Positions 5,462-57,564 of a stretch of 64,000 nt of DNA are shown piece after piece (position 1 is the stretch's first letter; each line of letters opens with the position of its first letter). The stretch spans positions 32,730,337 to 32,794,336 of the forward strand of contig CM041780.1 in assembly GCA_023374045.1 (NCBI GenBank). Reading direction: 5' to 3'. Source of the stretch: Limonium bicolor. Lineage: Eukaryota; Streptophyta; Magnoliopsida; Caryophyllales; Plumbaginaceae. The notes beneath the pieces are model-generated. The model worked only from the letters and a program-made list of their open reading frames with translations. It searched no databases and was not told the origin of the DNA. The position numbers were made by a program, and so were the translations under genes.

Positions 5462-5949
5462 GCTTCCTTAAAGATAGAAAAATCGGTAAAAACCGAGATT
5501 TACCGACGTTTTAGCTTAAGGGCTTCCAAAAAGAATTTGATTATGAAATTTTACACATGGGTAAAGGATGATATTTCCGAATTTTCTAAAGTGGAATCGA
5601 ATTTTTTGGACATTGGAATATTTTTAAATTCAATTTCTCGTCAGATTCAATCAGAAATTGCTAGAAAATTATTGGAAATTCGAAAAATCAAAATTCCAGC
5701 GCCATTATTCTCAGATGTCATCCTCTATCATGGGTTAAAATTTCAAAGCATTTTGAATTGATTTGACCCTTATTTGGAGAGAGAGAAAGCCTATAGGGGG
5801 CTTAGGAGCCTTGAAAAATTACGAAAATGCCCCTGGAGATGACTAAGCTGTCCCTAGTACTCTGAAATGTGCCGATCGAATTGGGAACCCTCGCTACTAG
5901 CCTATTAGTAGAGACTCTCTTCCGGGGGGTTGAAATTTTGGGTATAACA

Positions 5950-8778
5950 CTATCTTAATGTTTTTGAAACAATGTAAAACCTAGGGTTTACAATGAGTTT
6001 AAGCTTGGAGCTTGTATACTCATTACATTGCTTGTATATTGTTTAGTAGTTGACAAGGAATCAAATACCTAGCCAATTTTAAACAAGGAAACAAGAAAGA
6101 AGTTTGTGTGAAAAAAAAGGTAAACATGCTAACCTAATGTGTTTAATGCCTTAGGAGAAATGAGCTTATAATGCTTGTTAAAACTACTTAAAGAGCTAAT
6201 GATAATGACCTAGTGAAATGTTCTCAAGGAGATTAGTAAAAGGACATATGTGTTGTTGTGTGTATTTGCAGGTCAAAGGCATATATATTGTGGAAATTCA
6301 GTGTTTAAGAGTTATGCACTTTAAGGGCCTAAGAGCCATGCATTTTAAGGGCCTAAGTGCCATGCAATTTAAATTATGCACTACATTGTGATGTAGTGTA
6401 AATTTGGTGAAACTTTGTGTGTGAGAGTGCTCTGGTGAATTTAGGTGTTCTTGTGTGCTTAATGGAGAAAACAATGTGTTTTGGTTTAGTAATGTTCTAG
6501 GAGAACCTATGTCAAAATTTAGGTAAGAACCAAGAAGCTCTAAGGGTTTAGAGTGAGTTTGGTAAGCTAGGAAATGTTTAGTATGGAAGGTGATCAACTA
6601 GTGGAAGAAACATGCATTGAGTTGTTTAAAGATGTAAAAAGGGCTTAGGCAATGTTTTAGAGGATTTAGAATGCAAAAGAATGTTTTGGACATTTCAAGA
6701 TCATGGTGAGATTGTATTTAGGACTTGTGCATTGTTGGTGAAAAAGGGATGAAGTGATTTGTTGCATGGGAGTTATAAACTTGTAAGGTGTTCAAGGGGT
6801 TGCTTAGAAAGGAAAAAATGCTTGGGAGATGATGTTGTAGTGGTGAGGAAACATTATTTGCATAGTGGTTATCATAGGTATGAAACACCACTAGGAAAAC
6901 TAAGGAGGAAATAACATAAGTGTTAGGAATTTCGGTATGAAATGGGTAAGTGTTTAAGGTGATAGAATAATGAGTTTCATGGATGTTGTATGTGGATATA
7001 AGTGTACCAAATGATGTTAGAAAACATTAGGAGGCCTTAGGAGAAGTTTGGAGTTGAATGGACAATGGAAAATAAGGGTCTGGAGCAGACCGACCTTGCG
7101 ACCGAACTTGCCAAGGTTGGTCGAGCTCAGTTTACCCTGCGAGAATTGGTTTCTGGAATGGACCGACCTTGGGGACCTGACTTGCAAGGTCGGTCGGGCT
7201 TGTATTTTGTGTACGAATTAAGTTTCTGGAATCGACCGAACATGGGACCGGACTTGGCAAGTTCGGTCGGGCCTGAATTTTCAAAGGGAAGAAACTCTCG
7301 GGAATGGACCGAACATGCGACCAAACTTACAAGGTCGGTCGGAGTAGAAAATTTTGACGGTAATATGTTCTAGAATGGACCGACCTTGTGTAAGGTCGGT
7401 CGGTAAGGTCGGTCGGACCTAAACTTGTAAAAAAAAAAACAAACAAGAATGGCTTAAGTAATAAACCCTAGGGGGTATAATTTAGGTAATCAAGTATAAG
7501 TTAAGACATTAAAACATGTCATATAGTCATGTTAAACATTTAGTGAATTTGAGGTTAAATAAATTAATTAACCGACGTTATTAATCATGTATAGGAGTGA
7601 CCTACGGTGGAAACAAATCGAAGCAGGGACCAAGGTATGGTTTTCTTGCAGTCTGTTGCCTACCTGTTTACACCGGCTTGTGTGTTGTTTGTTTTTCTGT
7701 GTGTTTATGACTTTGTAAGATTAAACCATGTAAAAAGTTTACAGTTTTTAAATATTAATATGTTGTTAAGTATGACTCTCTCTTCCCTTGTGTGTGACTA
7801 ACAAGTCTTGACCTATTATTGTGAATTGTGCATTGAGTTCAGTAATGAACTGCTAACAAGTGCTAACGGGGGAAGTGAGGAGTCCGGTCTGTTCCGGCCA
7901 TGCGTGTGAGCATGGGAGTCGATGTCATAACCGGTTCGATTCTCTTTGTATGTTATGGTTGTTTTCCATTTTGGTTTCCAACCTTCCCTTTAGCTTAACC
8001 AAGGCTATTTTACTGACTCACGTCGGGCCACAGGGGCATACTATGTGTTATTTCGGTGTGCTTGGATCACTATATCCGAGGCACCTTGTGTTAAGTTATC
8101 CGTTCAATCTAACAGACAGTAACGAGTTGTGTAATGAGCTTAGCATGAGCATGGCAACATTCTCTAGGCTCTCTATGGGGACTAACTGTGTTGGTTCTCT
8201 TCCTAAAAGGAATTGTTCTTGTGTGATGTGTGTGATGTTTTGTACAATACCCATGTTATGATATATGTATAAGTTGTGTGGTTTTGAAATGAATGCCATG
8301 TCACCATGACAATTAGTTGCGCGTATCCCGGTAGCCGATGGGCTGCGCGTTAACCATACCAGCCAAGGGTTGCTGACCCCCTCGGGGGCTCCATATTCCT
8401 TTTACTGCAGGATGAGGATCGAAGAAGCGGAATGGCTTTAAATTCTAGGATGTAGGTTTACTTTTGATTACTTTTGGATGTTGGGCCCTAGATGCGCCTG
8501 TGCTCCCGTGGCGTTATGTATTTGGGTTGTGAACAGTTTATAGTGATGGTTTACAGTGAAGGATGTAAGTAAATACTCGGTATTGTGTTTTTGTATATGT
8601 GGTTATTAGTTCTATGCTCGGGAGTCTGATCATCAGACCGGTACACTTGTATTTATTCAGCCTTGTTAACCACGTGGGTGGTTGACGGCGTTGTAGCACC
8701 AATCGTTTAGTTACTGTTTAGTTGTTTAAATTCCGCTGCGATTTCAAGTAATGTTATGTGCGTAGTAGGGGTGTTACA
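5950..8778 (+). repeat. 5' LTR of the chromovirus, left part missing
   Basis: This is collinear with 26336-29154 of the 3' LTR and ends in GGGTGTTACA just before the primer site. The first ~1130 bp of the LTR are absent because Tat element A is inserted at 5949/5950. It includes the GGTCGGTCGG cluster (7076-7415) and a GC-rich segment near 8320-8400. The short open frames here recur in the 3' LTR and are not protein genes. Confidence 0.9.
7076..7415. repeat. GACCGACC/GGTCGGTC inverted-repeat cluster, 5' LTR
   Basis: Five or more units of about 50-70 bp each begin with GGA(A/C)CGACC-like sequence and end with AAGGTCGGTCGG-like sequence, so each unit can fold on itself. The duplicate in the 3' LTR is at 27470-27810. 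Confidence 0.75.
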
Positions 8779-8782
8779 AAAG

Positions 8783-8809
8783 TGGTATCAGAGCGAAGTA
8801 TCGCTCTGA
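8783..8809 (+). other. Primer binding site, tRNA-iMet type, within a hairpin
   Basis: TGGTATCAGAGC begins five bases after the LTR end and complements the 3' end of initiator tRNA-Met, as in most chromoviruses. From 8788 the site forms one arm of a perfect 9-bp inverted repeat (TCAGAGCGA, AGTA loop, TCGCTCTGA). The non-coding element at 40700-60500 has a near-identical hairpin at its own primer site (57536-57560). Confidence 0.85.
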
Positions 8810-8996: not shown

Positions 8997-10331
8997 ATGT
9001 CAGGTTGACCGAGAGGTAGAGGCCGTGGACACGGTACTGATGATACGGGTGACCAGGGCGAGAATACTACGGCCCAGGTTATGGACGAGGTAGTAGCAGC
9101 CGTCGTAGCCCAGATGGTACCCCAGTTGGTAGCTGCGATGCACCAGGGGCAACAGCCCGGAGTTCAACCACCACCGCCACCACCACGAGAGACCAACTGG
9201 GTCAAGGCGTTGGCTGATCTGAGGCCACCATCTTTCAGTGGGGAGACCGACCCTCGTAAGCTGGAGGCGTACATCTCCGAGACCTTAGTGGTGCCTGAGA
9301 AGGTCAAGGTTCGACTTGCCGCATACTACTTGAAGGGTTCGGCACAGAGCTGGTGGAAGCTAGTACGGGAGGGCAGAGTTGCTGATCCGACCTTTCAGTG
9401 GAGGGAGTACACGACTCTGCTGCGAGCCAAGTACTACCCGATACATGTGCAAGAGGCCAAGCGCCTGGAGTTGGACAATCTAAGGCAAGGGGATAAGATG
9501 ACGGTAGATGAGTACTACTCAGCCTTCATCGGACTATCCACCTGCTAACCAGATCTGGGTTACTCAGACCGGATTCTTGTGAACCGTTTCTACAACGGAC
9601 TGAGCTACCGCCTACGCTATGGCATGGGGCCAACTGGATATACTACCTTGCAGGAGTGCTACCATGCCGCTGCAATTGTGGAGATCACCGTCCGCCTGAG
9701 GGACGAGGAGAGTGCGCTCAAGCGCAAGGCCATGAACGAGGGCAATGGGGAGGAAAGAAGAAGAAGTCATACCCCCAGTCCCAGAAAGGACAGCAACAGG
9801 GTGGCAAGGGCCAGACCCAGACCACCACTGCTGAGGAGCCTCTGCAGCTCACCTATGCGTATGCGGCCAAGCCCTTACGTTCTTACCCACGCAAGGGTAA
9901 TTAACAAATTTCAATACCGAAATCTAGTGTGTGTTATTAACTTGTGAAGTATGTACTGAGTGTGTGATGTGTTAGCAGCTAGCACGGGCTCTGGACCGGA
10001 GCGCCACTATTACTACAAGTGGTGTAACGGAGACCACCCCGGCAAGGAATGCAAGAGTAACGATGTGTAGTGTCGATACTGCAAAAAGATGGGTCACCGC
10101 GACTATGAGTGCTGGCAGAACCCGAACAGTAGAAGCTACAGGCCCAAGGGGCAATGGAAGGGTAAGGCCACTGCGACCACCGATGGCCCGAAGACGGCGA
10201 ATCAGCCACCCCCAGATCAGAGGTACATAGATTCCCAGAAGGGGAAGGGGTCGGGGTCCGGCAAGGCCGCCCTGAATGTGGTGGACCGGTCTGAGGCGCC
10301 AGGGCCCTCTTCTAGACCAGGTACCGCCTAA
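8997..10331 (+). pseudogene. gag: Chromovirus gag with double zinc knuckle
   Basis: The probable start is the ATG at 8997, followed by an Arg/Gly-rich N-terminus, a poly-Pro stretch and the capsid core (PPSFSGETDPRKLEAYI, then KGSAQSWWKLV). The C-terminal part has two adjacent CCHC motifs. The second is intact (CRYCKKMGHRDYEC); the first has lost its leading Cys. Defects: TGA at 9006, TAA at 9546, a frameshift near 9755-9770 and TAG at about 10068. Between the capsid region and the knuckles the frame is interrupted at 9897-9978 by a stretch with intron signals. After the knuckles the frame ends at 10331 unless an intron donor at 10321 is used. RNA-binding and particle assembly are the family role. 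Confidence 0.85.
9897..9978 (+). other. Candidate 82-nt GT-AG intron inside gag
   Basis: The donor AAGG/GTAATT and the acceptor TTAGCAG/CT bound an AT-rich 82-nt segment. Removing it joins the capsid frame to the zinc-knuckle frame in phase 1 with no stop at the junction. The same stretch unspliced ends the frame at 9902. The size is near the lower limit for plant introns. Splicing is inference. Confidence 0.45.
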
Positions 10332-10465
10332 ACTGTTGAGTGAAATAAGTGATTGCATACCGCATTTCATGCATGTGTGTTAGTAAGTTTAAGTAAACAA
10401 CCATGTGAGTAAACAATTAAAGTATAGCGTGAAAGTCACCTAATTAGGTAATTCTAAACTTAAAG
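10321..10465 (+). other. Candidate intron between gag and the AlkB domain
   Basis: The donor CCAG/GTACCG follows the gag knuckle region in phase 1. The acceptor AACTTAAAG precedes 10466, where the AlkB-like reading frame starts, also in phase 1. The same donor can pair with the acceptor GAGGCAG at 11433-11435 in front of the protease frame, again in phase 1, which would skip AlkB. The donor is not strong. Confidence 0.35.
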
Positions 10466-11205
10466 GGACCTTCAATATATGTTATCCAATTCCACCCACA
10501 CCAAACCCTGAAGAAACTACCATCGGCATCACCGACTTTCCAATGGAGCAATGTCAGGTCATCCAACCAGGTATGGTACTCTTAAATGGATACCTGACAC
10601 CAGAAGCACACAATCCATATCATCAGACGATGCGACGAACTTGGGCAAACCAGGAGGTTTCTACACACCCGAATACCCCGAGCGGATCAAGAATGAAATT
10701 GAAGATGATGTGCATGGGTAAGGACTAGAACCCTTACACCAAGACATATCAAGATGTGAGAGCTGAAGATGGAGCAACTGTACTGAGTGTACCCGAGGAG
10801 TTCCTTGTGGTCGTTAACCACGCCGTGGGAATTGCTCAACAAGTTGAAACGGATTCAATTCCAAGTGTGAAAGCAGATCTATGCATTGTGAACTTCTACC
10901 AGAAAGGTGGACGGTTAGGTTTACACCAAGATAAGGACGAGTCACCCGAGTCTCTAAGTGAGGGAGTACCCGTGGTGTCTTGGTCCATTGGTGATACCGC
11001 AGTGTTTATTTATGGCAAGCAGAAGCGTGCTGATCTCGCAAAGAAGCTAGTGTTGAAATCGGGAGATGTGTTAATCATCGGTGGGCAGTCAAGGATGCTA
11101 TACCATGGCATCAGGAAGATCAAACTGAATACCGCACCGTCGGTAGTGATCAATGCCACACACATGAAACCCGGACGTTTGAATTTGACCTTCAGACAGT
11201 TTTAA
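10466..11205 (+). pseudogene. AlkB-type 2-oxoglutarate/Fe(II) dioxygenase domain captured in the retrotransposon
   Basis: The predicted product resembles plant ALKBH proteins (2OG-FeII_Oxy_2), which oxidatively remove methyl groups from nucleic acids using Fe(II), oxygen and 2-oxoglutarate. The frame opens GTFNIC and reaches VIQPGMVLLNGYL, the start of the plant ALKBH core. Three single-base shifts (about 10600-10680) and a TAG at 10726 break this part. From 10756 an unbroken 149-codon frame holds the catalytic core: NFY (substrate/2OG contacts), HQD (His at 10924, Asp at 10930), YHG (second metal His, 11104) and RLNLTFR (two Arg, 11176 and 11194). All key residues are present. It lies between gag and protease on the same strand. 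Whether it served the element or is a captured host fragment cannot be told from one copy. Confidence 0.85.
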
Positions 11206-11435
11206 GCCTTGTATAATTATGTGATGTGATAAACCAGTGTATGTTAAGGATGTTGTAAGTGTTAATTATGGCGACAGTATAAGCCAACGAATGTTGTAAA
11301 AAGAGTGTGTTAATGAATAAAGTGGAGTTGTTTGAAGCATATAAACCGTGTTATTACCCAATACTTATTAGTTTTCCAATGAATTAGGCTGTGCACTCGG
11401 AACGGGAGGTATACTGAGTGTCTGTAATGAGGCAG
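11206..11435 (+). other. Non-coding spacer between AlkB and protease
   Basis: This AT-rich 230 bp has no open frame and includes an AATAAA word near 11318. It looks like the 3' untranslated part of a captured gene followed by a splice-acceptor-like GAGGCAG at 11429-11435. Both readings are inference. Confidence 0.4.
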
Positions 11436-12498
11436 AAGCCGGCAGGTGCGGCACAATCCTCACCGGTACCTTTCTAGTCAATGGCGTGGACGCTTCGATC
11501 TTGTTCAACTCCGGAGCCTCACACACATTTGTTTCGCTATCTTTTGTGAAGAGGCTGGGGTTAGACAGTGATGAGATGCCAAACTTCCTAGTCACTCTCC
11601 CGTCGAAAGAGCGGATCAGGTGTACCCGCTACCACCGAGATGTTGTTGTGAGAATCAGAGGTGAAGAATTTCTGATCGACTTGATAGAGTTCGACGGACT
11701 TGGTTTTGATGTGATTGTCGGGATGAACTGGTTGGAGCGGTACAAGGGCAGGATCCTGTGTGCCGAGCATCGTCTGCTTCTTCGGAGTCCATCTGGGGTT
11801 ACCATATCTTACCGCTAGAGACCCAGGGAGCCTTCGACTCAGATCATCACCGCCATGGCTATGAATCGTGAATTACGGCGAGGGAGTGATATATACCTCT
11901 GCTATGTCCAGGACATAGAGAGAGACCCAGAGTTTAGTCCTGATGTGCCGGTAGTGTCGGAGTTTCCTGATGTATTTCCTAAGGAACTGCCGGGCATGCC
12001 GCCAGCACGGGAAGTTGAGTTTGTAATTGATTTGGTTCCGGGCACCGGACCAATTGCGAAGGCACCCTATCGTATGGCTCTAGCAGAGATGACTGAGCTC
12101 AAGGAGCAGCTGAGATACCTACTCGACAAGGGGTTCATCCGCCCTAACGTTTCACCATGGGGAGCGCCGGTCCTCTTCGTGAAGAAGAAGGACGGTAGCC
12201 TCCACCTGTGTATTGATTATCGAGAGCTGAATGCAGTTACGGTGAAGAACTGTTACCCTTTACCACGCATCGACGATATATTTGATCAGTTGAGGGGAGC
12301 ATCAGTATTCTCCAAGATAGATCTACGATCCAGATACCATCAGATTGCCATCCGTGACAGTGATATCCAGAAGACAGCATTCAGAACTAGGTATGGACAT
12401 TATGAGTTTACAGTTATGCCGTTTGGGTTATCCAATGCACCAGCTAAGTTCATGGACTTAATGAACCGCTTGTTCCAAGATCAGTTGGACAAGTCAGT
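11436..12498 (+). pseudogene. pol: Chromovirus protease and N-terminal reverse transcriptase
   Basis: The protease frame (GTFLVNG, then ILFNSGASHTF) has Asn at 11507-11509 in place of the catalytic Asp of the D-S-G motif. A TAG at 11816 precedes the RT frame. The RT part carries [43 protein letters not shown] (usually LRSGYHQ) and [13 protein letters not shown], covering fingers and the first catalytic Asp region. It stops just before the IDD box because a CACTA transposon is inserted at 12498/12499. The remainder resumes at 22624. Confidence 0.9.
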
Positions 12499-13205
12499 GT
12501 GGAACGCGAGGCTTTAATGACGGTGGTTTAATCACGGCTTAAACAGACACCGTGATTAATAGGAAGGCCGGAATTTATTAGCGACGATGATTGATTAACC
12601 CGTAATCAATAATCGGAGGTTGGCGCGCCTTTTTTAGGAGGGACTTTAGATGACGGTTTTTAGTAAAACCGTAATCTAAAGTCCCGTGTTGACGCGCGCT
12701 TTACGGTCAACGGACTTTAGATTACGGTTTTACTAAAAACCGTCATCTAAAGTCCCTCCTAAAAAAGGCGCGCCAACCTCGTCAACGAAGTCGTTTTGAC
12801 CTGACGAAAAAATTTCCCGTATTATTTGATTTATTCGACTCCGCGCGTAATCTAAATTACAGTTAACGACGTCGTTTTAGCAGTGTATTTTAGATTAATA
12901 AAAACTTTATATTAATGTGTTACCTAATACCTATGTTTGAAACCCAACATATGGCAAATAATTATCGCGCTATTTTTTTAATTTCGTTACACTTTAGATT
13001 ACATTTAACGACGTCGTTTTACAAGTGTATTTTAGATTAATAAAAACTTTATATTAATGTGTTACCTATGTTTGAAACCCAACATATGCCAAATAATTAT
13101 CGCGTTTTTTTTTAATTTCGTTACACTTTAGATTACGGTTTTTGTGAGAACCGTCATGTAAAGTATGACTTTAGTTTACGGTTTACATGTAAACCGTAAT
13201 CTAAA
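12499..13205. repeat. Left subterminal inverted repeats of the CACTA element
   Basis: The terminal part has TTTAATGACGG- and TTAATCACGG-type units. A large inverted repeat of about 160 bp (12616-12779) is centred near 12698: GGTTGGCGCGCC and the DNA inward of it return in reverse at the other arm, each arm containing ACTTTAGATGACGGTTTTTA. Two near-identical ~125-bp blocks with AACGACGTCGTTTTA follow (about 12850-12985 and 12998-13110). The last dyad ends at 13205. These are probable transposase binding sites by analogy with other CACTA elements. Confidence 0.8.
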
Positions 13206-14952
13206 GTCCATTTAAACATTTGCCTATACTCTGCACACTCTACTCACACTAACTCTTCTTCTCTTTCGCGCTATCTTCCTCACTGAAATTGCCTCCTCTC
13301 TCCCGTCACCTTGCTAACGGCCATCGCCGCCGTCACTCCCATTGCCGCCGGTCACCACCCATCTACCACTGGTCTCACCGTCGACGTCTCTATCGCGTAT
13401 TGGGTATGCGATCGCGATTGATTGTCGTTTTTTTCTAACTTTGTTCATATACATGCATTTCGATTGCAAGTTCTAACCTCGTTTGTATCGAATCCTGAGA
13501 GTGTAATGGCAAATGTTCTAACCTTGTTCATATATTTGTGCCCAGATTCACAGTTAATTGCGACCTAGTTCGTGGGCTGATTTCTACACTACTTGCCCAC
13601 TTCGGTGCTTACTTACGGTAACTTTGCAAACCAATCTGTAAACTGCTGTATTTATTTGTTCTTAGCATTTAGTATTACAATTAATACATAATAGTGTAGT
13701 TTTAAAAATGCTACTACTTAAAACTGCCACAGGAAAGAAAGTAAGTTCAAGTATATCACCGATTCCTGAAAAATGAATGGAACAGAACTGTAGCATATCT
13801 CAGTTTCATGAATGGAACAGAACTGTAACAAGTTGTTTGAGTTTTGGTCTGGATTTAAAAGCTTAATGGAATATTTAAGTAACTGGGTAAGGTGTTAGGA
13901 GAAGTATAATCAGTTGAAAGGAAAAAAAACAGACAGGGAAGAAAGCAAGAACACAACTCAGTTTCTGTTTTGATTTCAGTTTGGATTTCAGCTTCAGTTT
14001 CGTATCAGATCAGGTTCTGACTAATTCTGCATCTGTAACAAAGTTGCCTTGGGTTTAGTTGAGTTAGAAACTTTATAACACACCAAATTGACAGGATCGA
14101 CAGTTTAGAAAGGTTTGAGAATTCAAACACGTGAACAAACAGAGAGGAGTCATACACCAGTCTCTGTCTGTCTGTTTCTAGCTTTTCTTTCAGTTTCTAT
14201 TTCTGTTTGAGTTCTGTGTGAATCTGTTCAGTAGAGGCAACAGAAAGATGTTGTCGTTTTTCTGTTTCTGTAAACTAAATTCATCAGTGAAGATAAGTTT
14301 ATGTATGTTACCAGTTCTAGATGGTGCGTGCGAATTTGACTTTGATAAAACTGATTTGGAGACGTTAGAAATATAGGGGAGATGCTGTCGATTTTTTTCC
14401 GCGGTTTAGCTAGCATTTAACCTTGATTTTTTGATGAATTCTAATGTTGTCGTTTTTCATTTATGCATCAGGACTACGACTTTATTTAGGCTTCCGACCT
14501 CAACCGTCTTAGCATCGGCTAATCGTCTACCAGCGGTAAGATTTATATATATACATATAATATTTGACAAACTACCAAACATAGTTATCCGCCCAAGATA
14601 TACCTAATAGAGGTATATCTTCGGCAGTCCCTGTCGGGACTGTCCACGATTGTTAAATCACACACCTAGGGTGTGAATGTGCTTTTAATATGTACTTTAT
14701 TGATTATTTCAGCAGTATCTCTTTATTGTTCTTCGAATGCATATATTATTGATTAATATCATAATATCGTGCATTTGAAGAACTGTAGGGAGATGCTGCC
14801 GAAATTTTCAATAAATTACATATTTAAAACACGTTCACCGGTGGGATTTAATACTCATGGATGGATTTAGGTTGATAAGATACAAAAGTGTAAAGACTCT
14901 GCCACGGGTGACGGTATGAAATGGCTGCCTTCATATAAATAGCTAGAAGGAG
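13206..14952 (+). promoter_or_regulatory. CACTA 5' region: CT-rich leader and intron-like DNA
   Basis: A CT-rich, ATG-free stretch at 13230-13400 looks like a transcribed leader, followed by AT-rich intron-like DNA. Short inverted repeats occur at 14594-14620 (AAGATATACC...GGTATATCTT) and 14632-14651 (AGTCCC...GGGACT). A longer hairpin is at 14728-14783. No coding frame of note is present. Confidence 0.5.
14728..14783 (+). repeat. 56-nt near-perfect hairpin upstream of the transposase
   Basis: The arm GTTCTTCGAATGCA pairs with TGCATTTGAAGAAC (one G-U pair), and the inner ATATTAT/ATAATAT and TGAT/ATCA segments continue the stem to a four-base loop. It resembles a small-RNA precursor in size. 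That function is not shown. Confidence 0.6.
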
Positions 14953-17900
14953 ATGGAACGTTCGTGGATTTACAGCGGAAATTTGGACGACAAGTTTTTA
15001 GAAGGAGTTGATAAGTTATGCACGGTGTTGGCGAACAATCTGAAGCCTACAGACAAGGGATACATATTTTGTCCGTGTATCGACTGCCAAAACAATCTGA
15101 GATATCGCGGCGTTGAAACAATTAAGGAACATCTGATCCGCCGCGGTTTTACAAAAGATTTCCAAGACATAATCCGATGGCATGGTCAGAGTGCGTTCGA
15201 TGTTATTAAGCCTGACGAAGGGGATAATGGTCAGGCAAACACGGAAACAGAACTTGGAGATGATACAGTTGCTGGTGATCCAGAAGACGTTACAGCGAAC
15301 GTTGTGCCGATTTCTGGGATGATGACATTGAGACTATGCTTGAAGATGTGGAACGACATTACTCTAACACGCCAGACAAGCATGAAAATTTGTTGGATTC
15401 ATCCAAAACACCGTTGTACCCCGGGTGTGACCCTACAAAGTTAAGCAAGTTGAGTGTCGTCCTCAAGCTATTCAACTTGAAAGCGAAACATGGCTGGAGC
15501 GACGTAAGTTTCACTGACCTCCTGGAACTATTGAAATACGTTCTTCCGGTGGACAACGTTTTACCAACGACTACGTACTCAGCCAAAAAAATGATGTGCC
15601 CAATGGGTATGGGGTACCAGAAAATTCATGCTTGTCCAAATGGTTGCATGCTGTTTTGGAAATCGGATGAATTTGCTGAAAGCTGTTCAGCATGTGGAGC
15701 GTCACGGTATAAGAAACAACAAACTCACATCAGCGGTAGTAAGAAAGGTTCACCAGCTAAGGTATTGTGGTACCTGCCCATCATTCCAAGGTTCAGACGT
15801 TTGTTCTCCATTGAGAAAGACGCAGAGAATCTTCGGTGGCATTCAGTTCACAGGAAAAAGGATGGCAGATTGAGACATCCCGCTGATGCACCACAGTGGA
15901 GAAACATAGACGTAAAATTTCCTGAGTTTGGTAACGAACCGAGAAACCTAAGGCTAGGCTTGTGCACGGATGGGATGAACCCTTACGGTACTTTGAGTAG
16001 CATACACAGTACCTGGCCTGTGCTTTTGGTTATTTACAATCTACCGCCGTGGTTATGCATGAAACCAAGACACATCTTGTTGTCTTTGTTAATATCTGGT
16101 CCAAAGCAACCGGGCAACAAAATTGACGTATTCCTACAACCTTTGATAGAGGATCTACAACTCTTGTGGAATGAAGGGGCTACGGTTTACGACTCATTCA
16201 GTAAAGAGGACTTCAATTTGCGTGCTATGTTGTACTGCACAATCAATGATTTCCCCGCCTATGGTAATCTTTCAGGCTATTCAATCAAGGGGGCGTTGGC
16301 GTGTCCGATTTGTGGTGAAAACACTTGTAGCATTCGCTTGAAACATAGTGGGAAAACCGTGTATATGGGCCACCGAAAAATGCTTCCTAAAGGACATAAG
16401 TATCGAAAGATGGCGAAAGAGTTCGATGGGAAAACTGATCACAGCATGGCGCGCCAGCCTTTGACAGGTACAGAGATTTACAAAAAGTTGGATAATATTG
16501 TGAACAACTTCGGGCCGCCAACCAAAAGTGGTGAAAAAAGTGTCTGGAAAAAGAAATCAATATTTTGGGAACTACAGTACTGGCAGCATCTGGAGGTTAG
16601 ACATTGTATCGATGGGATGCATGTCGAGAAGAACGTGGGTGAAAGTATCACTAGCACCCTTTTGAACATAAAAGGAAAGACAAAGGATCATTTGAAAGGA
16701 AGAAAAGATTTAATTGAGTTGGGCATACGCACAGAGCTTGGCCCGCAAGAACGTGGAAAACGCACATTCTTGCCTCCTGCCTGTCACACTCTGTCTAAAG
16801 AAGAGAAACATAGTCTATGCAGTACCCTTTACAACATCAAGGTGCCATCAGGTTACTCCTCAAACATAAGAAACTAGTGTCCATGACAGATTTCAAATTA
16901 GTAGGAATGAAATCTCACGATTATCATGTCCTACTTCAAGAATTTTTGCCAATTGCACTACGTGGGATCTTGCCGGATGCTGTCAGACACACAATCACAA
17001 ACGTCAGTGTCTTCCTCAAACACATTTCGTCTAAGGTTCTTGATGTGGACACTCTGTCTAAATTACAAAAGGATCTTATTGTGACAATGTGCCAGCTGGA
17101 GATGTATTTTCCTCCATCGTTCTTCGACATAATGATACATCTCCTCGTGCATCTTGTAAGAGAGATTCTGATGTGTGGTCCTTTGTACCTTCGCTACATG
17201 TATCCGTTCGAAAGGTACATGGGTGTCCTGAAGAAGAAAATGAAGAACCGTCGTCACCCAGAGGGTAGTATTATAGAGGGCACTATCACAGAGGAAGTTG
17301 TAGACTTCTGCACCAATTACCTAGAAGGTGTCGATACCATTGGACTTCCACGTTCTAGACACGAGGGCAGATTGAAGGGTGTTGGCACGGTTGGAAGGAA
17401 ACTGAAAAGAATTGATATAGACACTCTTAACAAAGCTCATTTAGTTGTGCTAAGTCATCTTGAAGATGTTGAACCATACTTTGATGAACACTTGTGTGTT
17501 TTAAGAGCACAATATCCAAACATGAGTGACGTCAGACTACAAAATGAGCAGAATAGGACATTTGTCCGATGGTTCAAAGAGAGAGTGTTGTCCGATCAGT
17601 CCACGAATGTGCCTGAACTGATTAAAGTAGTTGCATTTGGACCAAATCTGGATGTAATTTCTTATGAGGGGTACGATGTCAATGGATTCACCTTTTTCAC
17701 AGAACGTCAGGATCAGAAGTCAACGAATCAAAACAGTGGTGTAGAGCTTGAAGCTTATCAAAACTTATATGACGTCGGTGTCGTGGGTCATAGTCCTGTC
17801 TCAGTACAACAATCATATTTCGGTGTTATACAAGACATCTGGGTATTGGACTACAACAGCTACGAAATGTGTGTTTTCCGCTGTAACTGGGTTAACAACA

Positions 17901-18217
17901 ATCATGGCTACCGTGAAGAGGAGCATGGTATGAAACTGGTTGATCTGTCTAGAGCTACTCCCACGGTTGAGCCATTCGTTGTTGGGACGAAGGTTAAGCA
18001 GATATTTTATGTAACTGATCCCTGTAATCCTAGATGGTCTGTTGTGCTTAAAGGGAGAAGAGGAATAGTTGGTGTGGATGGTGTGGTTGATGAGGATGAG
18101 TATGATGCAGAAGATGAACCTCCAACTGTTCCTATTTCATTGGAAGAGGCTGAGGTCACAGGTCATCGTGAGTATATACGATCAGACCATAACGAGGGAA
18201 TGTGGGTTGAGAGATAA
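14953..18217 (+). pseudogene. CACTA TNP2-type transposase (two frameshifts)
   Basis: The start ATG opens MERSWIYSGNLDDKFLEGV, the Transpos_assoc domain (about the first 75 residues, with a Cys-rich FCPCIDCQNN motif). A one-base shift near 15310 leads into the Transposase_21 catalytic region (CPNGC and CSACGASR zinc motifs, LRLGLCTDGMNPYG, CPICGE, CIDGMHVEKNV). A second shift near 16873 leads into a DUF4218-like segment (VHLVREILMCGPLYLRYMYPFERYMGVLK) and then a DUF4216-like segment (FGVIQDIWVLDY, FRCNWV). The stop is at 18215-18217. The complete family protein is about 1,000-1,100 residues, which this matches apart from the shifts. It should bind the subterminal repeats and cut the element ends. 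Confidence 0.9.
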
Positions 18218-18339
18218 TGGTGTATGTAAGTTATTACTACAAAAATTTATATGAAATTAACACTCTTTTATTTCTTGCTTGTATATGACCATTATGAAAT
18301 GCTTAATTTAATTCAAATTGTATTTCAATCCTTGCAGGC

Positions 18340-21300
18340 ATGGCTGATCAGGACATGGATGATCAGGACATGGTTGATGCAGAGTTCGATTTATGTTGCC
18401 GTGAGTTCGACAATGAGCAGCAGATGGTACCGGTCCCATCTACATCTGCCGCTGCTGCTGTTGTCCCATCCACATCTGCCGCTGATGCTGTTGGCCCTTC
18501 CATGAGTGCACCTTCTACGAGTGCTACTCAGAGACCCAGAGGTAGAGGTCCGACCCGTGGGTTGAAACTGCAGAAAGAGGATCAGATTAGTCTTCTGTGG
18601 GACAAGTATGGGAGGTATGGTGGGGGCAGCAGGTCAGAGTTCGGTAGTATGCTAGGGACTCTGGCCAGATCACATTGCTGCATCAACCACACATGGAAAC
18701 AAGTCCCGCAAGAAGTTAAGGAGACCATCTGGAAGAAGGTGCAAGAACGATACAAGATCCCAGAAGAAGTGAAGCAGACCGTTCTTTCTTTGGTCGCCGG
18801 CAAAGCTAAATCATTCCGTCACTACTTGGTTGAGCATTGGATCAACCAAGTGCCCCCACGTGAGCCTCCGCCGTATGTTGTGTACAATGGCATGATCACT
18901 GAAGAGGAGTGGAAGGAGTTCGTTGAGCGGCACGCCACCCCCGAGTTCAGGGTATGTTTGTGTGTACTCTTTTCTTAATTAATGCTCATAATGCTTTATC
19001 CCTGATTTTCTAATTAATTTCCTGTTGTACTTTCTTAACAGCAAGTACAAGAACAAGCACGGCAAAACCGTCAAGCTAATCTCTACCCCCACACCATGGG
19101 ACGAAAGGGATATGTGGGCAGCCTCGAGGGATGGAAAGAAGCTGGTTTGCTGACACGGAGGAACGATGATGGAAGTGAATGCCCGATCGAGGATGTCTCT
19201 GAGGCGAGGAGGGTGCAGATGTACATACTGGGACGCCAGAAAACGACCAGCGAAGGTCAGAGGGTATTTCCTAATGCTGCGATGGAACAACTGGCTAACC
19301 AAATTGTAAGTATTTGAAAGTAGCTGTTAAATAATTTACTTATATACTCAAGTGTTTGTTGATCTTAAATTTAGTGTTAACTTCTTTGACAATTGGACAG
19401 TACGAAGCGGCACAGAGAGGAGAAGTAGACTTACACGCTCCTCCTTCTCAAGACGACGCGCTCAATCAAATACTTGGGAAGAAGGATCACCCAGGGCGTG
19501 TTAGAGGATTTGGGGGAGAAGTACGTCAGAAGAAAGTATTCCCGCCATCTGCTAGGAAGGGTCAGATGAGTGCTGCTGAAGTCGAGGCGATGGTAGAGCG
19601 TAAGTGGGCTGCTGAGCGCCAAGCTAATGAGGAGAAACTGGCTGCTGAGCGCCGAGCTTTCGAGGAGAGGCTGCAGGAAGCGTTGAATTCGATCGCACAT
19701 GCGACTACACAGCAGCAGCAGCAGCAGCAGCATGATCCTCCTCGACTGTCTTCCTCGTCTAGTTGTGCTCCTGCCGCTGACCCGTACCCATTTGCCAACA
19801 TCCGGGTTAGCTTTGTTTAACTATTTTTCTCCTAAAATAAAGTCATTTAAATAGTATTAGATTGGGTTCACTTATTTATTTCACGTATTATCTCTGTTTA
19901 TTGAAGGAGCAACAAAAATGCCGTCTCCAAATACCATTAGAAGGGCACCCTGTAGATGCGGCCTACGGGACAGTGTTGCCATCAGGTCCACTCACGCTCA
20001 TCAGTTTCGTACGTCTACCCCCATTCTACGCGCGTGTGACCTTGGACCTGATCATTGATGGATTTGAGCATGCATACCTTCCAATGGCGTTTGACAACAA
20101 ATGCACGCTGATCGAAGCAAAGGGAGACATATTGCCCTGGCCAGCATGATATTGTTGTCACCGATGAGGTAAGACTGTTTGACAACCATTTAGTATCTAA
20201 TAAAATGCATTATTTAGCATTAAGTGTCTAATCTAATCTATTATAGGTCCTGAGCTTCCTCGCCGCGTAACCCGGCCCAGACTAGAAGAGACCAGCGCGC
20301 CGGCGAATCCTGAGATCCCTGAGCTTCCTCGCCGCGTATCCCGGCCCAGAGAAGAAGAGATCAGCGCGCCGCGAATCCTGTCAGAAGTACAAGGGTATGT
20401 TCTAGATAAATGTTTAATGTTACTATAATAATCAATTAGTAATTATCTTTACATTTATGCTTTACTGTTTGTGTGTGAAGGGTAAGAATCCAGTGAGTCG
20501 GGGTGGGAAAGGTAAGAATCCAGCGCCCGTCCGGGGACGTCGCACCAAGACTTCTGAGGCGCCTAAAAATAAGCTCGAACTGCCAGAAAAACTTGTTAAG
20601 GTTTTGGGGGCCAAGCAGATGAATCTCTACGACAAGATCATATTGAAGTCATCTCAAACTAACAACTTCATGATGACGCTTCCAAAGTCGATGTTTCACT
20701 ACGAAGAAGATATGATCACGACAATCAACTTTGAGGACATCAGAGAGATGATGTGTGGAGATTATCTGAACATTAACATTATTCAAGCTTATCTATTGTA
20801 AGTGTTCTTTCCTCATACTGTAAAAACATATAGAATAAGTATCTATGAAGTTGCATTGGCTAACTTTTTATACAACATGTGATATAATAGATGTCTGCTT
20901 GAGAGATGTGCTGAGAAGGACATGACCTCCATTACTGCGGTGTGCCCGGAGCGTTTATCATACGACAATGTCACTAGGGACCCGGGGAGGTTTTGTAATT
21001 ACATGATTCATTGCTTCAATGTTGTTGATGAACAGAATAAATTGTTCATTCTAATGCCGTATCACCAAACGTGAGTTCTGATATAAAATTACATACTAAT
21101 TAGCTAACTTTTTTACCTTCATTTCTCATTTCTTTTGTATTTGACATTGTAGCCACCACGGGCTTTGTTTATATTCTGCGCTGCCACCGCTACTCTGCTC
21201 GTTCTAGATCCACTAGGGCAGTGGACAGAATTCCACACTGAAGACATAATCAAAGAGTAAGTTTTATTACTATTTAATTGTATGTAAGTTTTTTGAACCA

Positions 21301-21784
21301 AAATTAATGTACTTGTTCATTTTGCTAAACGCTTTTGTTAATATATGTAACAGTTGTTACAAAAAAACCCCACAGGGAGAGTTTGGTGATTTGACCGTCG
21401 ATTACATCAAGGTTTGGTAATTCATGTATTTCATTTGTGCTGCTATCTTTGTACAATTGTTTTACATTTTTGAATTTTGGTGATTTAGTGCCCTACCCAA
21501 AAGGACTCTAGGAGTTGCGGGTACTACGTGATGCGGTATATGTACGAGTTCTGCGCGTACTTCCCAAGTTTTAAGAATGATAAAGACAAGTAATAAGAAC
21601 GCTGTCTTGTATTTAATTGTTTCGGCAGATTTTTTGTGTCTTTATCTTAATCTCATTATGTGTTCCATTCCTTTTCTTGTTGCAGATTAAAGAGCATTTT
21701 GCCAGATTCTCGACTTACAGTGCAAACGACTTGTTGCATGTCAGAGAGAGCATGTCATCCATGTTTATGAGAATGGAGTGGTAG
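18340..21784 (+). pseudogene. CACTA second gene: Transposase_24 and Ulp1-like protease, 11 exons
   Basis: Exons inferred from GT-AG sites and frame: 18340-18951, 19042-19305, 19401-19805, 19907-20168, 20247-20394, 20481-20797, 20891-21070, 21153-21256, 21354-21411, 21489-21589 and 21686-21784. Exons 1-3 encode a Transposase_24-type protein (RSEFGSMLGTLARSH, then HTMGRKGYVGSLEGWKEAG) with a charged coiled coil and a Gln run. Exon 4 is a DUF8039-like segment ending in PWP. Exons 6-11 encode a C48/Ulp1-like cysteine protease: LVLDPL holds the Asp and CPTQKDSRSCGYYVMRYM the Gln and Cys. A base appears missing at the end of exon 4 (about 20149). Another is missing at the start of exon 8 (about 21155-21162), where the catalytic His-Trp should be, so the copy is non-functional. 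Exon 5 contains a ~65-bp tandem duplication. Confidence 0.82.
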
Positions 21785-22254
21785 ACTAGCTATGATGGAT
21801 TTTGTTTTTAACAGTTTTCTGCACCATTTTTGTACTGTTTTACACTTCTGTTTTATGCTATTTCTTGCTGGGAGTAATCCTAGCTGTATCTACCATGTAT
21901 AGGTTACACTGCTACCTTTGTAGCCCTCTGATTCTGCTGGTCTCTAGCTGCTGTAACAGATAATTTTTGTAATGAATTGCTAGTTGTTGTTGTATTGATA
22001 TATTTTTGTAATGAATTACTAGCTGCTATTGAATATTTTTTGTTGCTGTAACAGATTCAGCAGTAACAGATTTTCGATCTGGTGTATATTAGATGTTATC
22101 TTTGTTGCAATTGTGCGCAGAGAATGAATTTGTGTTGGTATTTGATTCAGGTGGTTCAATTGTGCAGTTTCTGCACATTTGTTGGTCTGATGCCTCTGTT
22201 GCTTCTGGCTCTATTGCGATTGTGTAGATTTGCAAAATAAAAAAAAAAAAAAAT
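21785..22254 (+). other. 3' non-coding region of the CACTA element
   Basis: This T-rich sequence after the last stop contains repeated TGTAATGAATTGCTAG-like and CTGCTGTAACAGAT-like words, ending in an A run at 22237-22252. It is consistent with a 3' untranslated region. No coding frame is seen. Confidence 0.5.
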
Positions 22255-22623
22255 TACACTTTAGATGACGGTTTTGACAATAACCGTCATCTAAAGTCTT
22301 TTACCGCGCGCGCGCCAAAGGACTTTAGATGACGGTTATTGTCAAAACCGTCATCTAAAGTGTACACTTTACATTACGGTTTTTGGTAAAACCGTCATCT
22401 AAAGTCCTTTGGCGCGCGCGCGGTAAAAGACTTTAGATGACGGTTTTACCAAAAACCGTAATGTAAAGTCTTTTACACGCGGGAATGAAAAGGGCCTTTA
22501 ATTACGGTTTTAAACCGTAATTAAAGACGTCACAATCTTTATTGACCCCCGCGTAGATTACGGTCCAGAACCGTAATTAATCAGGGTTTTGGACCGTAAT
22601 TAAAGGCTTCCGTTCCACTAGTG
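22255..22623. repeat. Right subterminal inverted repeats and terminus of the CACTA element
   Basis: Four ACTTTA(G/C)AT(G/T)ACGGTTTT-type dyads are nested: two hairpins flank GCGCGCGCGCC-rich centres, and the whole 22257-22475 block is itself close to an inverted repeat about a midpoint near 22363. Simpler TTTAATTACGG units run to the CACTAGTG end. Confidence 0.85.
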
Positions 22624-24909
22624 CCGGTAGTCATCATCGACGATATACTTGTGTACTCGAAATCGAGAGGTGAGCATGAAAGCCACCTAAGGAATGTCTT
22701 ACAAACATTGAGAAAGAACACGTTGTATGCTAAATTTTCGAAATGTGAGTTTTGGCTGAACCAAGTATCCTTTCTTGGTCATGTGATTTCTGAGGCCGGG
22801 ATCGCTGTTGATCCGGCAAAGATTGATGCAGTGCGCACCTGGCCTAGGCCGAAGACAGTTACCGATATCAGGAGCTTCCTCGGCCTGGCAGGTTATTATA
22901 GGAGGTTTGTGAAGGACTTCTCCAGCGTCTCGAAGCCGATGACTTCCTTGATGAAAAAGGATGCACCATTCGAGTGGACAGTCGACTGTGGGAGTTCTTT
23001 TCAGAGTCTCAAGGATGCTCTGACATCTGCACCGGTCCTGACTTTACCAGACGGTCCAGATGGTTTTGCGGTCTATTGCGACACATCAGGCAGAGGTATG
23101 GGTTGTGTGTTGATGCAACACGGGAAGGTCGTAGCATACGTCTCCCGACAGCTGAAGAAGCATGAAGAGAACTACCCTACCCACGACTTAGAATTGGGTG
23201 CCATTGTCTTCGCATTGAAGATATGGCGACATCACTTGTATGGGGTAAGTGTGACGATTTATTCTGACCACAAGAGTTTAAAGTACTTGTTCACTCAGAA
23301 GGAGTTGAACATGAGACAAAGAAGGTGGGTTGAATTTCTAAACGACTACGACATTAATCTGTAATATAAGGAGGGTAAGGCAAATGTGGTAGCTGACGCA
23401 CTGAGTCGCCGAGCACACTCTCTCCATTCGCTAGTCTCTCATTCTAGCTTGGTTGAAGAGGTGCGGAGTGCTCAGATGACGGATCAGTATATGATGGAGA
23501 TTAGACAGAAGCTTATTGATGGCACATTCGAGGGTCAGAAGTACGACTTCAGACTCCACGATGATGACCTGATTAGGCTTAATGGCCGATTGTGTATACC
23601 GAGAAGTAGCGCTGAGTTGAAGGAGCGCATATTGAGTGAACCCTATTGTTCTACTACTTCGATTCACCCTGGAGTTTCAAAGATGTATAAGGGTATGAAA
23701 AGATATTTTTGGTGGACTGGAATGAAAAAAGACGTGAATGACTATGTGTTGAGGTGTCTCACTTGCCAGAAGGTCAAGTTTGAGCACCGAAGGCCTGGTG
23801 GTATGGTACAGCCAATGCCAGTGCCTGAGTGGAAGTTCCATGATATTTCCATGGACTTCGTAGTAGGGCTTCCGCCTACAAGGGGAGGTCTGAATATGAT
23901 TTGGGTTGTTGTTGACCGACTGACCAAGGTGGCCCGATTCATTCCGATGAAGGACACCTCGAAAGTGGCAAAACTAACAGAGCTCTTTGATAGAGAGATC
24001 GTTCGGCACCATGGGGTACCGAAAACGATTGTATCTGACAGAGATACCAGATTCTTATCGAGGTATTGGAAGTCTACACGAGAAGCATTGGGTACCGAAC
24101 TGAAATTGAGTACAGCGTTTCACCCACAGACAGATGGTCAGAGTGAGCGCACCATCCAGACACTTGAGGATATGTTACGTGCATGTGCACTTGACTTTCA
24201 GACCAGCTGGATTGACAAGTTACATTTGATTGAGTATAGCTACAACAACAGTTACCATGCTTCGATCAAGATGTCTCCCTTCCCGGCCTTGTACGGTAGA
24301 CCATGCCGCACGCCATTATGCTGGGATGAGTCGAGTGAGACGGTCATTATAGGACCAGAGTAACTTGAACAAGTTCAGGCAGAAGTTCGCCAGATCCGGG
24401 CTAACATGAAGGCAGCTCAGGATAGACAGAAGTCGTACGCAGACGTGCGCAGACGTGACCTGGAGTTCGCCGTGGGCGATCAGGTATTCTTGAGAGTATC
24501 CCCCATGAAGGGAGTGTTTCGTTTTGGCCAGAAAGGCAAGTAGAGCCCGAAATATGTGGGGCCTTATGTTGTGACGGAGCGGATCGGCCCGGTAGCTTAC
24601 AGACTTGATTTACCCGCCGAGCTGGGCAAGGTACATGATGTATTTCATGTGTCCCGGTTGAAGAAATATATGTCTCATCTGTCTCATGTACTTTAGCCTG
24701 AAAGGCTAACCTTAGAGCCGACCATGCGATCAGTGGAGACTCCGGTACGCATTCTGGATACTAAGACTCGAGACACTCGCCATAAGTCTGTGAGACTGGT
24801 GAAGGTTCTCTGGTCTAACCAGGACGTTGAGGAGGCCACTTGGGAGCTGGAAGATAAAATGAAGGCGAAGTACCCGTCATTGTTTACTTCTAAGTGTTTG
24901 TATGTATAG
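22624..24909 (+). pseudogene. pol: Chromovirus reverse transcriptase C-terminus, RNase H, integrase and chromodomain-like tail
   Basis: This resumes at the RT active-site box IDDILVYSK, then [17 protein letters not shown] and [11 protein letters not shown]. RNase H follows ([31 protein letters not shown]). Integrase shows HPGVSKMY, CLTCQKVK, then SMDFVVGLP, VSDRDTRF and DGQSERTIQTLEDML, the D-D-E triad; the first His of the zinc motif is not evident. After [11 protein letters not shown] comes a tail with SVRLVKVLWSN and EEATWE, matching the chromodomain-like end of Tekay chromoviruses. In-frame stops lie at about 23362, 24361, 24541 and 24694. The final stop is 24907-24909. Confidence 0.9.
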
Positions 24910-28200: not shown

Positions 28201-29154
28201 ATTATTGTGAATTGTGTATTGAGTTCAATAATGAACTGCTAACAAGTGCTAATGGGGGAAGTGAGGAGTCCGGTCTGTTCCGGCCACGCGTGTGAGTATG
28301 GGAGTCGATGTCATAACCGGTTCGATTCTCTTTGTATGTTATGGTTGTTTTCCAATTTGGTTTCCAACCTTCCATTTAGCTTAACCAAGGCTATTTTACT
28401 GACTCACGTCGGGCCACAGGGGCATACTATGTGTTATTTCGGTGTGCTTGGATCACTATATCCAAGGCACCTTGTGTTAAGTTATCCGTTCAATCTGACA
28501 GGACGGTAACAAGTTGTGTAACGAGCTTAGCATGAGCATGGCAACATTCTCTAGGCTCTCTATGGGGACTAACTGTGTTGGTTCTCTTCCTAAAAGGAAT
28601 TGTTCTTGTGTGATGTGTGTGATGTTGTGTACAATACCCATGTTATGATATATGTATAAGTTGTGTGGTTTTAAAATGAATGCCATGTCACCATGACAAT
28701 TAGTTGCGCATATCCCGGTAGCCGATGGGCTGCGCGTTTACCATACCAGCCAAGGGTTGCTGACCCCCTCGGGGGCTCCATATTTCTTTTACTGCAGGAT
28801 GAGGATCGAAGAAGCGGAATGGCTTTAGATTCTAGGATGTAGGTTTACTTTTGTTTACTTTTGGATGTTGGGCCCGTGATGCGCCTGTGCTCCCATGGCG
28901 TTATGTATTTGGGTTGTGAACAGTTTACAGTGATGGTTTACAGTGAAGGATGTAAGTAAATACTCGGTATTATGTTTTTGTATATGTGGTTATTAGTTCT
29001 ATGCTAGGGAGTCTGATCATCAGACCGGTACACTTGTATTTATTCAGCCTTGTTAACCACGTGGGTGGTTGATGGCGTTGTAGCACCAATCGTTTAGTTG
29101 TTTAAATTCCGCTGCGATTTCAAGTAATGGTATGTGCGTAGTAGGGGTGTTACA
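25206..29154 (+). repeat. 3' LTR of the chromovirus (complete, 3949 bp)
   Basis: It starts TGAAATACCCC after the polypurine tract and ends GGGTGTTACA. The 26336-29154 part is duplicated at 5950-8778. A CT-rich segment at 25860-25940 followed by intron-like AT-rich DNA probably marks the transcribed leader. The GACCGACC/GGTCGGTC cluster is at 27470-27810. Two copies of an ACACAAAATGTGCTTTAAGG word lie near 25308 and 25467. No genes are present. Confidence 0.92.
27470..27810. repeat. GACCGACC/GGTCGGTC inverted-repeat cluster, 3' LTR
   Basis: This duplicate of the 5' LTR cluster keeps the dyads largely intact. The open frame running through it is a by-product of the repeat. Confidence 0.75.
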
Positions 29155-35712: not shown

Positions 35713-36255
35713 GTAAGGCTTATGACGGGCCAGAGGATGTTTAGTGGGGGTAGGGCTTATGACGGGCTAAGGATGTTTTGTGGAGGTAGGGCTTATGATG
35801 GGCCTAAGAATGTTTTCTAGAGGTAGGGCTTATGACAGGCCTGGGGATGTTTTGTGGAGGTAGGGCTTATTACAGGCTTGAGGATGTTTTTTGGAGGTAG
35901 GGCTTATGACGGGCCTGAGGATGTTTTTTGGAGGTTGGACTTATGACGGGCCTGGTAATGTTTTTTGGAGGTAGGGCTTATGACAGGCCTGAGGATGTTT
36001 TGTGGAGGTAGGACTTATGAAGGGCCTAAGGATGTTTTATGGAGGTAGGGCTTATTATGGACCTGAGGATGTTTTTGGAGGTAGGGCTTATGACGGGCCT
36101 GAGGATGTTTTGTTGAGGTATGGATTATGACGGGCCTGAGGATGTTTCATGGTGGTAGGGATTATAACGGGTCTGATGATGTTTTGTGGAGGTAGGACTT
36201 ATGACAGGCCTGAGGATGTTTTATGGAGGCAGGGCTTATGACGAGCCTAAGGATG
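35713..36255. repeat. 37-bp tandem array (about 15 units) at the 3' side of Tat element B
   Basis: The consensus unit is GGTAGGGCTTATGACGGGCC followed by TGAGGATGTTTTGTGGA. Units differ by point changes and occasional one-base indels. It begins exactly where the chromovirus LTR ends. Tandem arrays in the 3' untranslated part of Tat elements are a known feature of that lineage and can seed satellites. Confidence 0.88.
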
Positions 36256-36322
36256 TGGATATGTTAGTGCTTGAAGTCTGTGAGAGGCTTTAAGCTTTTG
36301 GGCTTTAATCAGTGTTACTATT

Positions 36323-42677: not shown

Positions 42678-42872
42678 GTTGGTCCGGGTTTGTGTACAGG
42701 GTTACAAACCCGGACCAATCACGGTTTTAAGTTTTTGGACACTTTTACATGTGGTCTGGATTTGTGTCCTGGGATATAAACCCGGACCAACCCCTGGATT
42801 CACTCTCTGGTGCATTTTTGATGTGGTCCGGGTTTGTGTACCGATTTGCAAACCCGGACCACCCCTGGAACT
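42678..42872. repeat. GGTCCGGGTTTG/CAAACCCGGACC hairpin units, LTR 1
   Basis: Three successive units of about 70-80 bp are present. Each has GGTC(C/T)GG(G/A)TTTGTGT and AAACCCGGACC arms around a short loop. The copy in LTR 2 is at 59563-59757. Confidence 0.85.
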
Positions 42873-45643: not shown

Positions 45644-45656
45644 CACCCCCACACTT
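45644..45656 (-). other. Polypurine tract of the Athila-type element
   Basis: The minus strand reads AAGTGTGGGGGTG directly before the TGATAAGTG start of the 3' LTR. Confidence 0.8.
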
Positions 45657-50161: not shown

Positions 50162-50164
50162 ATT

Positions 50165-57560: not shown

Positions 57561-57564
57561 TTTT

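Follow-up and report, generated by a model that had tools for sequence, protein, structure and literature searches.

The closest described system is Gypsy_Pa_2799, AlkB-bearing Ogre/Tat elements of Phalaenopsis published in 2022. As described in excerpts of that report, the AlkB is ALKBH5-like, is encoded by a separate ORF2 of 565 amino acids and demethylates m6A RNA in vitro; the AlkB domain was undetected in consensus sequences from the other plant genomes screened, 121 in all (PMC9289625). Sections of a 2025 review mention the orchid AlkB case and no other (PMC12786077), and no published chromovirus or ALKBH1-type case was found by title or abstract start in the open-access literature. A gag-pol intron has been described for Ogre (PMC6317226).

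The window, i.e., the whole stretch of 64,000 nucleotides of Limonium bicolor DNA analysed here, contains a Ty3/gypsy element with an AlkB domain of its own. The element has a chromodomain and, at 17 of 20 fetched loci as well as in the window, the primer binding site motif TGGTATCAGAGC, which we take to be of the initiator Met tRNA type; its AlkB is of the ALKBH1 type and is predicted to be an alternative exon in the gap between gag and protease. Gypsy_Pa_2799 is likewise a Ty3/gypsy element with a conserved and highly copied AlkB domain, but it belongs to Tat/Ogre, has a dual RNase H and a tRNA-Arg type primer binding site, and is described as encoding gag-pol in one ORF and the ALKBH5-like enzyme in ORF2 (PMC9289625). 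Neither a one-ORF gag-pol with an ALKBH5-like ORF2 nor a tRNA-Arg type site was seen in the Limonium element. Since the enzymes differ (ALKBH1-type versus ALKBH5-like), the acquisition appears independent of that in the orchid Ogre; judged by sequence, this is the second time that a plant Ty3/gypsy lineage has acquired AlkB, here in the form of an alternative exon. In plant RNA viruses the AlkB domain lies within the replicase; unlike the element, these are RNA viruses, and the two are likened here by description only. RNA viruses with AlkB domains are reported from the Alphaflexiviridae, Betaflexiviridae and Closteroviridae, and share with the element that a mobile genetic element has its own AlkB (PMC9289625). 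The gag-pol intron of Ogre, EVADE and BARE, reported to regulate the amounts of Gag versus Gag-Pol, resembles the predicted gag-pol intron of the Limonium element but is described without an enzyme exon (PMC12786077, PMC6317226), whereas in the latter the donor is predicted to serve a third product as well, Gag-AlkB.

The sequence-only reading had placed an AlkB core on the coding strand between gag and protease. This observation was confirmed and proved to be understated. The segment 10466–11205 corresponds to a degenerate AlkB exon in the gag/protease gap of a Ty3/gypsy chromovirus (Table 1): PF13532 (2OG-FeII_Oxy_2) was found on the plus strand, PF03732 (gag) upstream of it within 9081–9548, with the zinc-knuckle region reaching 10320, and PF08284 and PF00078 downstream. 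The start at 10466 given earlier is the exon start set by the acceptor. The core (10756–11205) comprises 149 open codons and matches PF13532 with an E value of 5.5e-35 over positions 75–194 of the 194 in the profile. It retains NFY, HQD, YHG and RLNLTFR and has the NxY, HxD...H (iron) and RxxxxxR motifs of the AlkB family; NCBIfam AlkB models matched below their cut-offs. One stop and frame changes are present in the N-terminal third (10466–10755), and gag and Pol are also disrupted by stops or frame changes, so that the window copy is dead. The order of protease (PR), reverse transcriptase (RT), RNase H and integrase (INT), together with a C-terminal chromodomain, is that of a chromovirus; the chromodomain match (PF00385) is marginal, at 25.2 bits barely above the cut-off of 25.1. 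The LTR pair differs by 61 substitutions and 8 gap events over 2825 aligned sites. The transposon that splits the RT is of the CACTA type, with a tnp2 transposase (PF02992), PF13963 and inverted repeats near its ends.

Table 1. Features of the AlkB-bearing retroelement, in positions of the window (a slash marks a junction between adjacent positions).
Feature	Positions	Strand	Remarks
5' LTR, left part absent	5941..8779	+	97.2% identity with 26326-29155
Primer binding site TGGTATCAGAGC	8783..8794	+	directly after LTR
gag capsid part, broken	8999..9896	+	two exons joined at 9653/9654; PF03732
gag intron b, GT..AG, 82 nt	9897..9978	+	A+T 0.67
gag last exon with zinc-knuckle region	9979..10320	+	3' end is phase-1 donor CCAG/GTACCG
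Intron c1, gag donor to AlkB acceptor	10321..10465	+	removal gives Gag-AlkB frame
AlkB exon, ALKBH1-type 2OG-Fe(II) dioxygenase	10466..11205	+	N-terminal third broken, 149-codon core open
Intron c, gag donor to protease acceptor, holds entire AlkB exon	10321..11387	+	removal gives Gag-Pol
Protease and first reverse transcriptase part	11388..12514	+	PF08284, PF00078
Nested CACTA-type DNA transposon splitting RT, approximate borders	12515..22620	+	PF02992, PF13963; foreign to element
RT remainder, RNase H, integrase, chromodomain; several stops	22621..24906	+	profile matches
3' LTR	25207..29155	+	start inferred from polypurine tract

The source assembly (2.92 Gb) was searched for further copies. 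PF13532 gave 38,326 first-look candidates, compared with 38 for the low-copy family ThiF and 47,042 for the retroelement protease RVP_2; as first-look candidates are loose, these counts place AlkB in the copy-number class of retrotransposon domains and no more. All 150 scored matches were full length, and 149 had no internal stop. An oil palm ALKBH1D query gave 117 scored matches of 53–58% identity; the six of these that were read were all element copies, and host ALKBH exons were not located with this query. Thirty-four loci picked on AlkB were analysed: 8 from the first profile search, 20 of the 150 matches and 6 of the 117. The 20 were chosen from the best AlkB scores to span open-frame lengths, which favours intact copies. 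The 34 loci represent 31 distinct places (doubles L004/L012, L006/L029 and L011/L013). Protease and RT were found downstream of AlkB in 34/34 and gag or zinc-knuckle pieces upstream in 33/34; the order gag-AlkB-PR-RT was present in 8/8 of the first loci and 20/20 of the chosen ones. No gag piece was found upstream of AlkB in L062, one of the six loci of subfamily C (see below), in which PR-RT followed AlkB in 6/6 and gag preceded it in 5/6.

A second sample was blind to AlkB and consisted of every 14th of 150 RT matches, starting from rank 2 (n = 10). AlkB was at the expected place in nine of these loci and nearly full length in eight, with the whole frame of 253 codons open in three; the tenth locus was rearranged, with an inverted AlkB piece and LTR sequence. 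Among 10 elements for which the stretch expected to hold the 3' LTR was fetched, 8 had a 3' LTR matching their own 5' LTR (95.7–98.2% identity), from which it follows that these are separately inserted and fairly young. In L012 (subfamily B) the match lay further inside the LTR than foreseen, and for L029 and L030 no matching 3' LTR was found where expected in the stretch fetched. At 20 loci picked on protease and spread over 150 protease matches, AlkB was absent from the 720 bases upstream in 20/20. The proteases of these loci were 30–48% identical to that of the window, and no close sister element lacking AlkB was found among them.

The AlkB-bearing loci fall into three deep subfamilies, A, B and C, with the window in A. 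The AlkB identity is 90–96% (DNA) for A, about 72% for B and 62–65% (protein) for C. In a protease tree, 15 AlkB-bearing rows (the window, 5 of 14 A, 4 of 6 B and 5 of 6 C loci) formed one clade against 20 AlkB-less rows, with a support of 100/99.9. The AlkB tree was built from 14 element rows (the window, 5 A, 3 B and 5 C), the database proteins P0001–P0005 and P0121, and 17 angiosperm host ALKBH1-type proteins, and did not contain plant ALKBH9/10 proteins. Here, the element rows and the six database proteins formed a single clade (100/100) on a stem of 0.67, separate from the host ALKBH1C/1D proteins; the position of this clade next to the 17 host proteins had modest support (94/74). Both trees gave the branching ((A,B),C), and a single AlkB acquisition retained through the split of A, B and C is the best explanation of these sequence relationships. 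The six database proteins are scattered among A, B and C, and a tree that kept the genome's copies separate was rejected (p-AU 7.4e-5). The sources ena and lgn were the sole origin of these six, which fits repeats that annotation leaves out; most probably they belong to related elements of other plants.

The type of enzyme was assessed by sequence comparison and by a fold model of the relative P0121 (pLDDT 86.1). In the fold search, the best PDB matches of the model were AlkB-family structures: OsALKBH1 (5xoi/5xeg; E 5.6e-29, 51% identity) and E. coli AlkB (3e-16). ALKBH5 first appeared at rank 49 (7.8e-8), and it was absent among the 21 sequence matches of the window core, which itself matched OsALKBH1 (chain 5xeg) with an E value of 4.3e-41 over residues 3–148. 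By sequence and predicted fold the element AlkB is thus ALKBH1-type, of the ALKBH1C/1D (OsALKBH1) branch and not ALKBH5-like. It shares the fold and active-site motifs of plant ALKBH1C and ALKBH1D. The host ALKBH1C/ALKBH1D genes have introns, whereas the element AlkB is read from one exon and has no long N-terminal region like that of the host proteins. Candidate substrates would be 6mA in cDNA, m1A/m3C in RNA or primer tRNA, and m6A in RNA. The last of these, in the form that the main job is to remove m6A from element RNA and so let this RNA out of stress granules, in the manner of ALKBH9B and ONSEN, is in our view rather unlikely. The orchid element-borne AlkB is reported to remove m6A in vitro (PMC9289625), and ALKBH9B to help ONSEN (PMC12786077), which speaks for an m6A eraser; however, the Limonium enzyme sits in the ALKBH1/AlkB branch, and rice ALKBH1 is described in the corresponding report as acting on 6mA in single-stranded or unpaired DNA (PMC10469495). 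The eraser role of the sequence-only reading, which was modelled on ALKBH9B, is perhaps wrong in detail; neither the intron around the exon nor the published orchid element figured in that reading.

Introns and splice signals were determined in the window and in loci of the three subfamilies. The gag of clade A contains two short GT-AG introns, a and b. Sequence was present at the place of intron a in 19/19 comparable clade A loci, with GT..AG and a length of 93–104 nt in 17; the exceptions are L023 (25 nt only) and L031 (ending in AA). Intron b measured 79–84 nt in 19/20 comparable clade A loci; its donor letters are changed in L025. The window lacks intron a and L024 lacks intron b, in both cases exactly, from which we conclude that these copies were reverse-transcribed from partly spliced RNA. 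Intron c runs from the phase-1 donor at 10320/10321 to the protease acceptor at 11387/11388 and encloses the entire AlkB exon. Among the window and 26 loci, the gag donor pattern was found in 24/27 (not in L022, L030 and L062), and the AlkB acceptor, an AG located exactly 5 nt upstream of the [FY]xIC codon, in 25/27 (L020 has a broken motif, and in L031 the letters are AA). The window has the protease acceptor, as do 13/14 A and 6/6 C loci and, by eye, 5/5 of the printed B loci. The donor and both acceptors, worked out by hand, are all in phase 1 in A, B and C, and the unspliced gag frame meets a stop 3–15 codons past the donor. The AlkB exon is therefore predicted to lie inside a gag-pol intron and to be joinable to gag by alternative splicing.

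Genomic DNA contains copies of each spliced form. The predicted gag/protease junction, produced by removal of intron c, was present at 13 genomic sites (5 exact, 7 with one mismatch, 1 with two), and the predicted gag/AlkB junction, produced by removal of intron c1, at 12 sites (3 exact, 6 with one mismatch, 3 with two). Reversed patterns, used as a control in the same whole-genome search, gave 0 sites for both junctions. Some of the sites may be duplicates of one event, since two site pairs are about 9–10 kb apart. One junction of each kind was read: in L078, gag is joined in frame to the AlkB exon (...SSRPG/TFNICYP...), with the frame broken further on, and in L079 gag is joined in frame to protease (...SSRPG/CALGT...). 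Both kinds are known from genomic copies alone.

With the anatomy, copy-number class, selection (see below), splice signals and genomic traces of the two spliced forms observed, we consider the following scheme, taken as a whole, highly probable. An ancestral chromovirus would have taken up a plant ALKBH1C/1D-type coding sequence as a single exon without interruptions, at a site downstream of the gag zinc knuckle and upstream of protease that is now intronic; the gene would then have been retained while the lineage split into three deep subfamilies, and its copies would have become very numerous. A single pre-RNA with one phase-1 donor could give three messages: without splicing at the donor, Gag that ends a few codons later; with splicing to the AlkB acceptor, Gag-AlkB; and with splicing to the protease acceptor, Gag-Pol. 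The Gag half of Gag-AlkB may carry AlkB into the particle, as in Gag-Pol. There, the enzyme may remove alkyl marks of the 6mA/m1A/m3C class from element RNA, primer tRNA or nascent single-stranded cDNA, which would shield reverse transcription or allow escape from silencing that relies on such marks. Beyond a putative AlkB-type demethylase joined to Gag, these functions are what we infer from the arrangement. ALKBH1 acts on m1A58 of initiator tRNA. More tentatively, and at slightly less than an even chance, we propose that a chromovirus lineage makes Gag, Gag-AlkB and Gag-Pol from one pre-RNA and packages an ALKBH1-type demethylase that clears alkyl marks on genomic RNA, on primer tRNA (e.g. 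m1A58 of initiator tRNA) or on single-stranded cDNA, which, together with the orchid Ogre, would mean that different AlkB enzymes have been acquired independently at least twice.

An enzyme acting on host RNA or chromatin, instead of on element nucleic acids in the particle, is unlikely: rice ALKBH1 is reported to remove 6mA from R-loops in chromatin (PMC10469495), but fusion via the final exon of gag would rather suggest the particle. A free-standing AlkB ORF with its own start, as in the orchid Ogre, with splice signals that serve Gag-Pol only, is improbable. Most clade A copies have an internal Met (codon 25 or 35) where the folded part begins or shortly ahead of it, which would permit a separate ORF in this clade, and P0001 and P0005 begin at such a Met; in clade B, however, the first in-frame AlkB Met is codon 75, inside the fold (6/6), A, B, C and P0121 all keep the FxIC start of the exon, and the gag/AlkB junction exists at 12 genomic sites. 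From the upstream stop to the AlkB exon, no ATG was present in 25/26 loci; L064 has one.

Selection on the AlkB exon was estimated by the Nei-Gojobori method for clades A and B, with clade C left out. The median dN/dS of AlkB between A and B was 0.105 (84 pairs; pN/pS 0.256), with synonymous sites near saturation (pS 0.70). Within clades the medians were 0.124 for A (91 pairs; pN/pS 0.04 to 0.87) and 0.13 for B (15 pairs); these values are biased by the 20 loci picked on good AlkB scores, to which the A-B differences are less exposed. For the other domains, the A-B values were 0.085 (protease), 0.053 (RT), 0.072 (RNase H), 0.045 (integrase) and 0.124 (gag). The data support purifying selection on AlkB with a constraint about equal to that on protease and gag, the A-B value being 0.105 versus 0.085 and 0.124. 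Constraint is weaker over the first 24 codons (A-B pN/pS 0.449). The many elements with AlkB at one place, the intact copies and the dN/dS below unity that the sequence-only reading had named as things to look for were found, the first of them in three subfamilies. Its suggestion that the 149 open codons hint at selection did not hold: with substitution and gap rates taken from the LTR pair and the time since insertion, the probability that the core stayed open by chance was 0.46 (0.20 at twice the rate), and the open core of the window copy is uninformative on selection. It had also named, as evidence against itself, a single AlkB-bearing copy matched by a host gene with near-identical introns and 3' end; the single-copy half of this failed, in favour of that reading, and the host gene was not located. 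Gene capture by plant transposons is common. A one-off or recent, functionless capture of a host ALKBH by a single element, with which the dead window copy and such captures would agree, is refuted by the copy-number class, the same place of AlkB in three subfamilies, the A-B dN/dS and the stem separating the element lineage from host proteins, and can be given virtually no credence.

Taken alone, the orchid element could be a chance event confined to a single genus. An independent second case, from a different Ty3/gypsy lineage and with a different AlkB subfamily, that has been kept under selection across three subfamilies suggests that carrying a demethylase pays; the packaging proposal above, if true, would point to nucleic-acid methylation as a general barrier to plant retrotransposons. 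Fusion to the capsid protein would be a natural route to deliver an enzyme into the particle apart from Pol. The splicing arrangement suggests the particle as the workplace of the enzyme, which makes it testable which mark, on which nucleic acid, limits retrotransposition. For annotation, this is a caution that transposon exons may be behind some of the AlkB/ALKBH1 genes predicted in large plant genomes.

The AlkB core had no tblastn match in phage records, and neither the core, the RT/RNase H piece nor gag1 had relatives among viral contigs, where an alignment query gave three distant matches only (33–37%). The Cinnamomum protein P0275, a gene model with gag and AlkB, was rejected as a candidate member; its AlkB is host-type ALKBH1C and lies outside the element lineage. 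With a gag domain in the same predicted protein, P0275 resembles a gene model that was fused with an element nearby. Three Smallanthus proteins (P0236, P0237 and P0238) have AlkB bit scores that are unusually high for their identity, perhaps reflecting several AlkB domains in a row.

Elsewhere in the window, the minus strand of 44128–51692 contains a young-looking retroelement, presumably Athila-like, with flanking repeats that are 98.9% identical and an open gag-protease frame of 918 amino acids at 46857–49613. It is surrounded by a repeat pair (40700–43578 and 57565–60463; 92–95% identical). The inner edge of the latter repeat (57495–57575) resembles the start of the AlkB element after the LTR (90% over 83 bases); tblastn with the gag, AlkB and pol pieces of the AlkB element found nothing there. 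A short tandem repeat array with a period of about 37 bases is present at 35713–36256.
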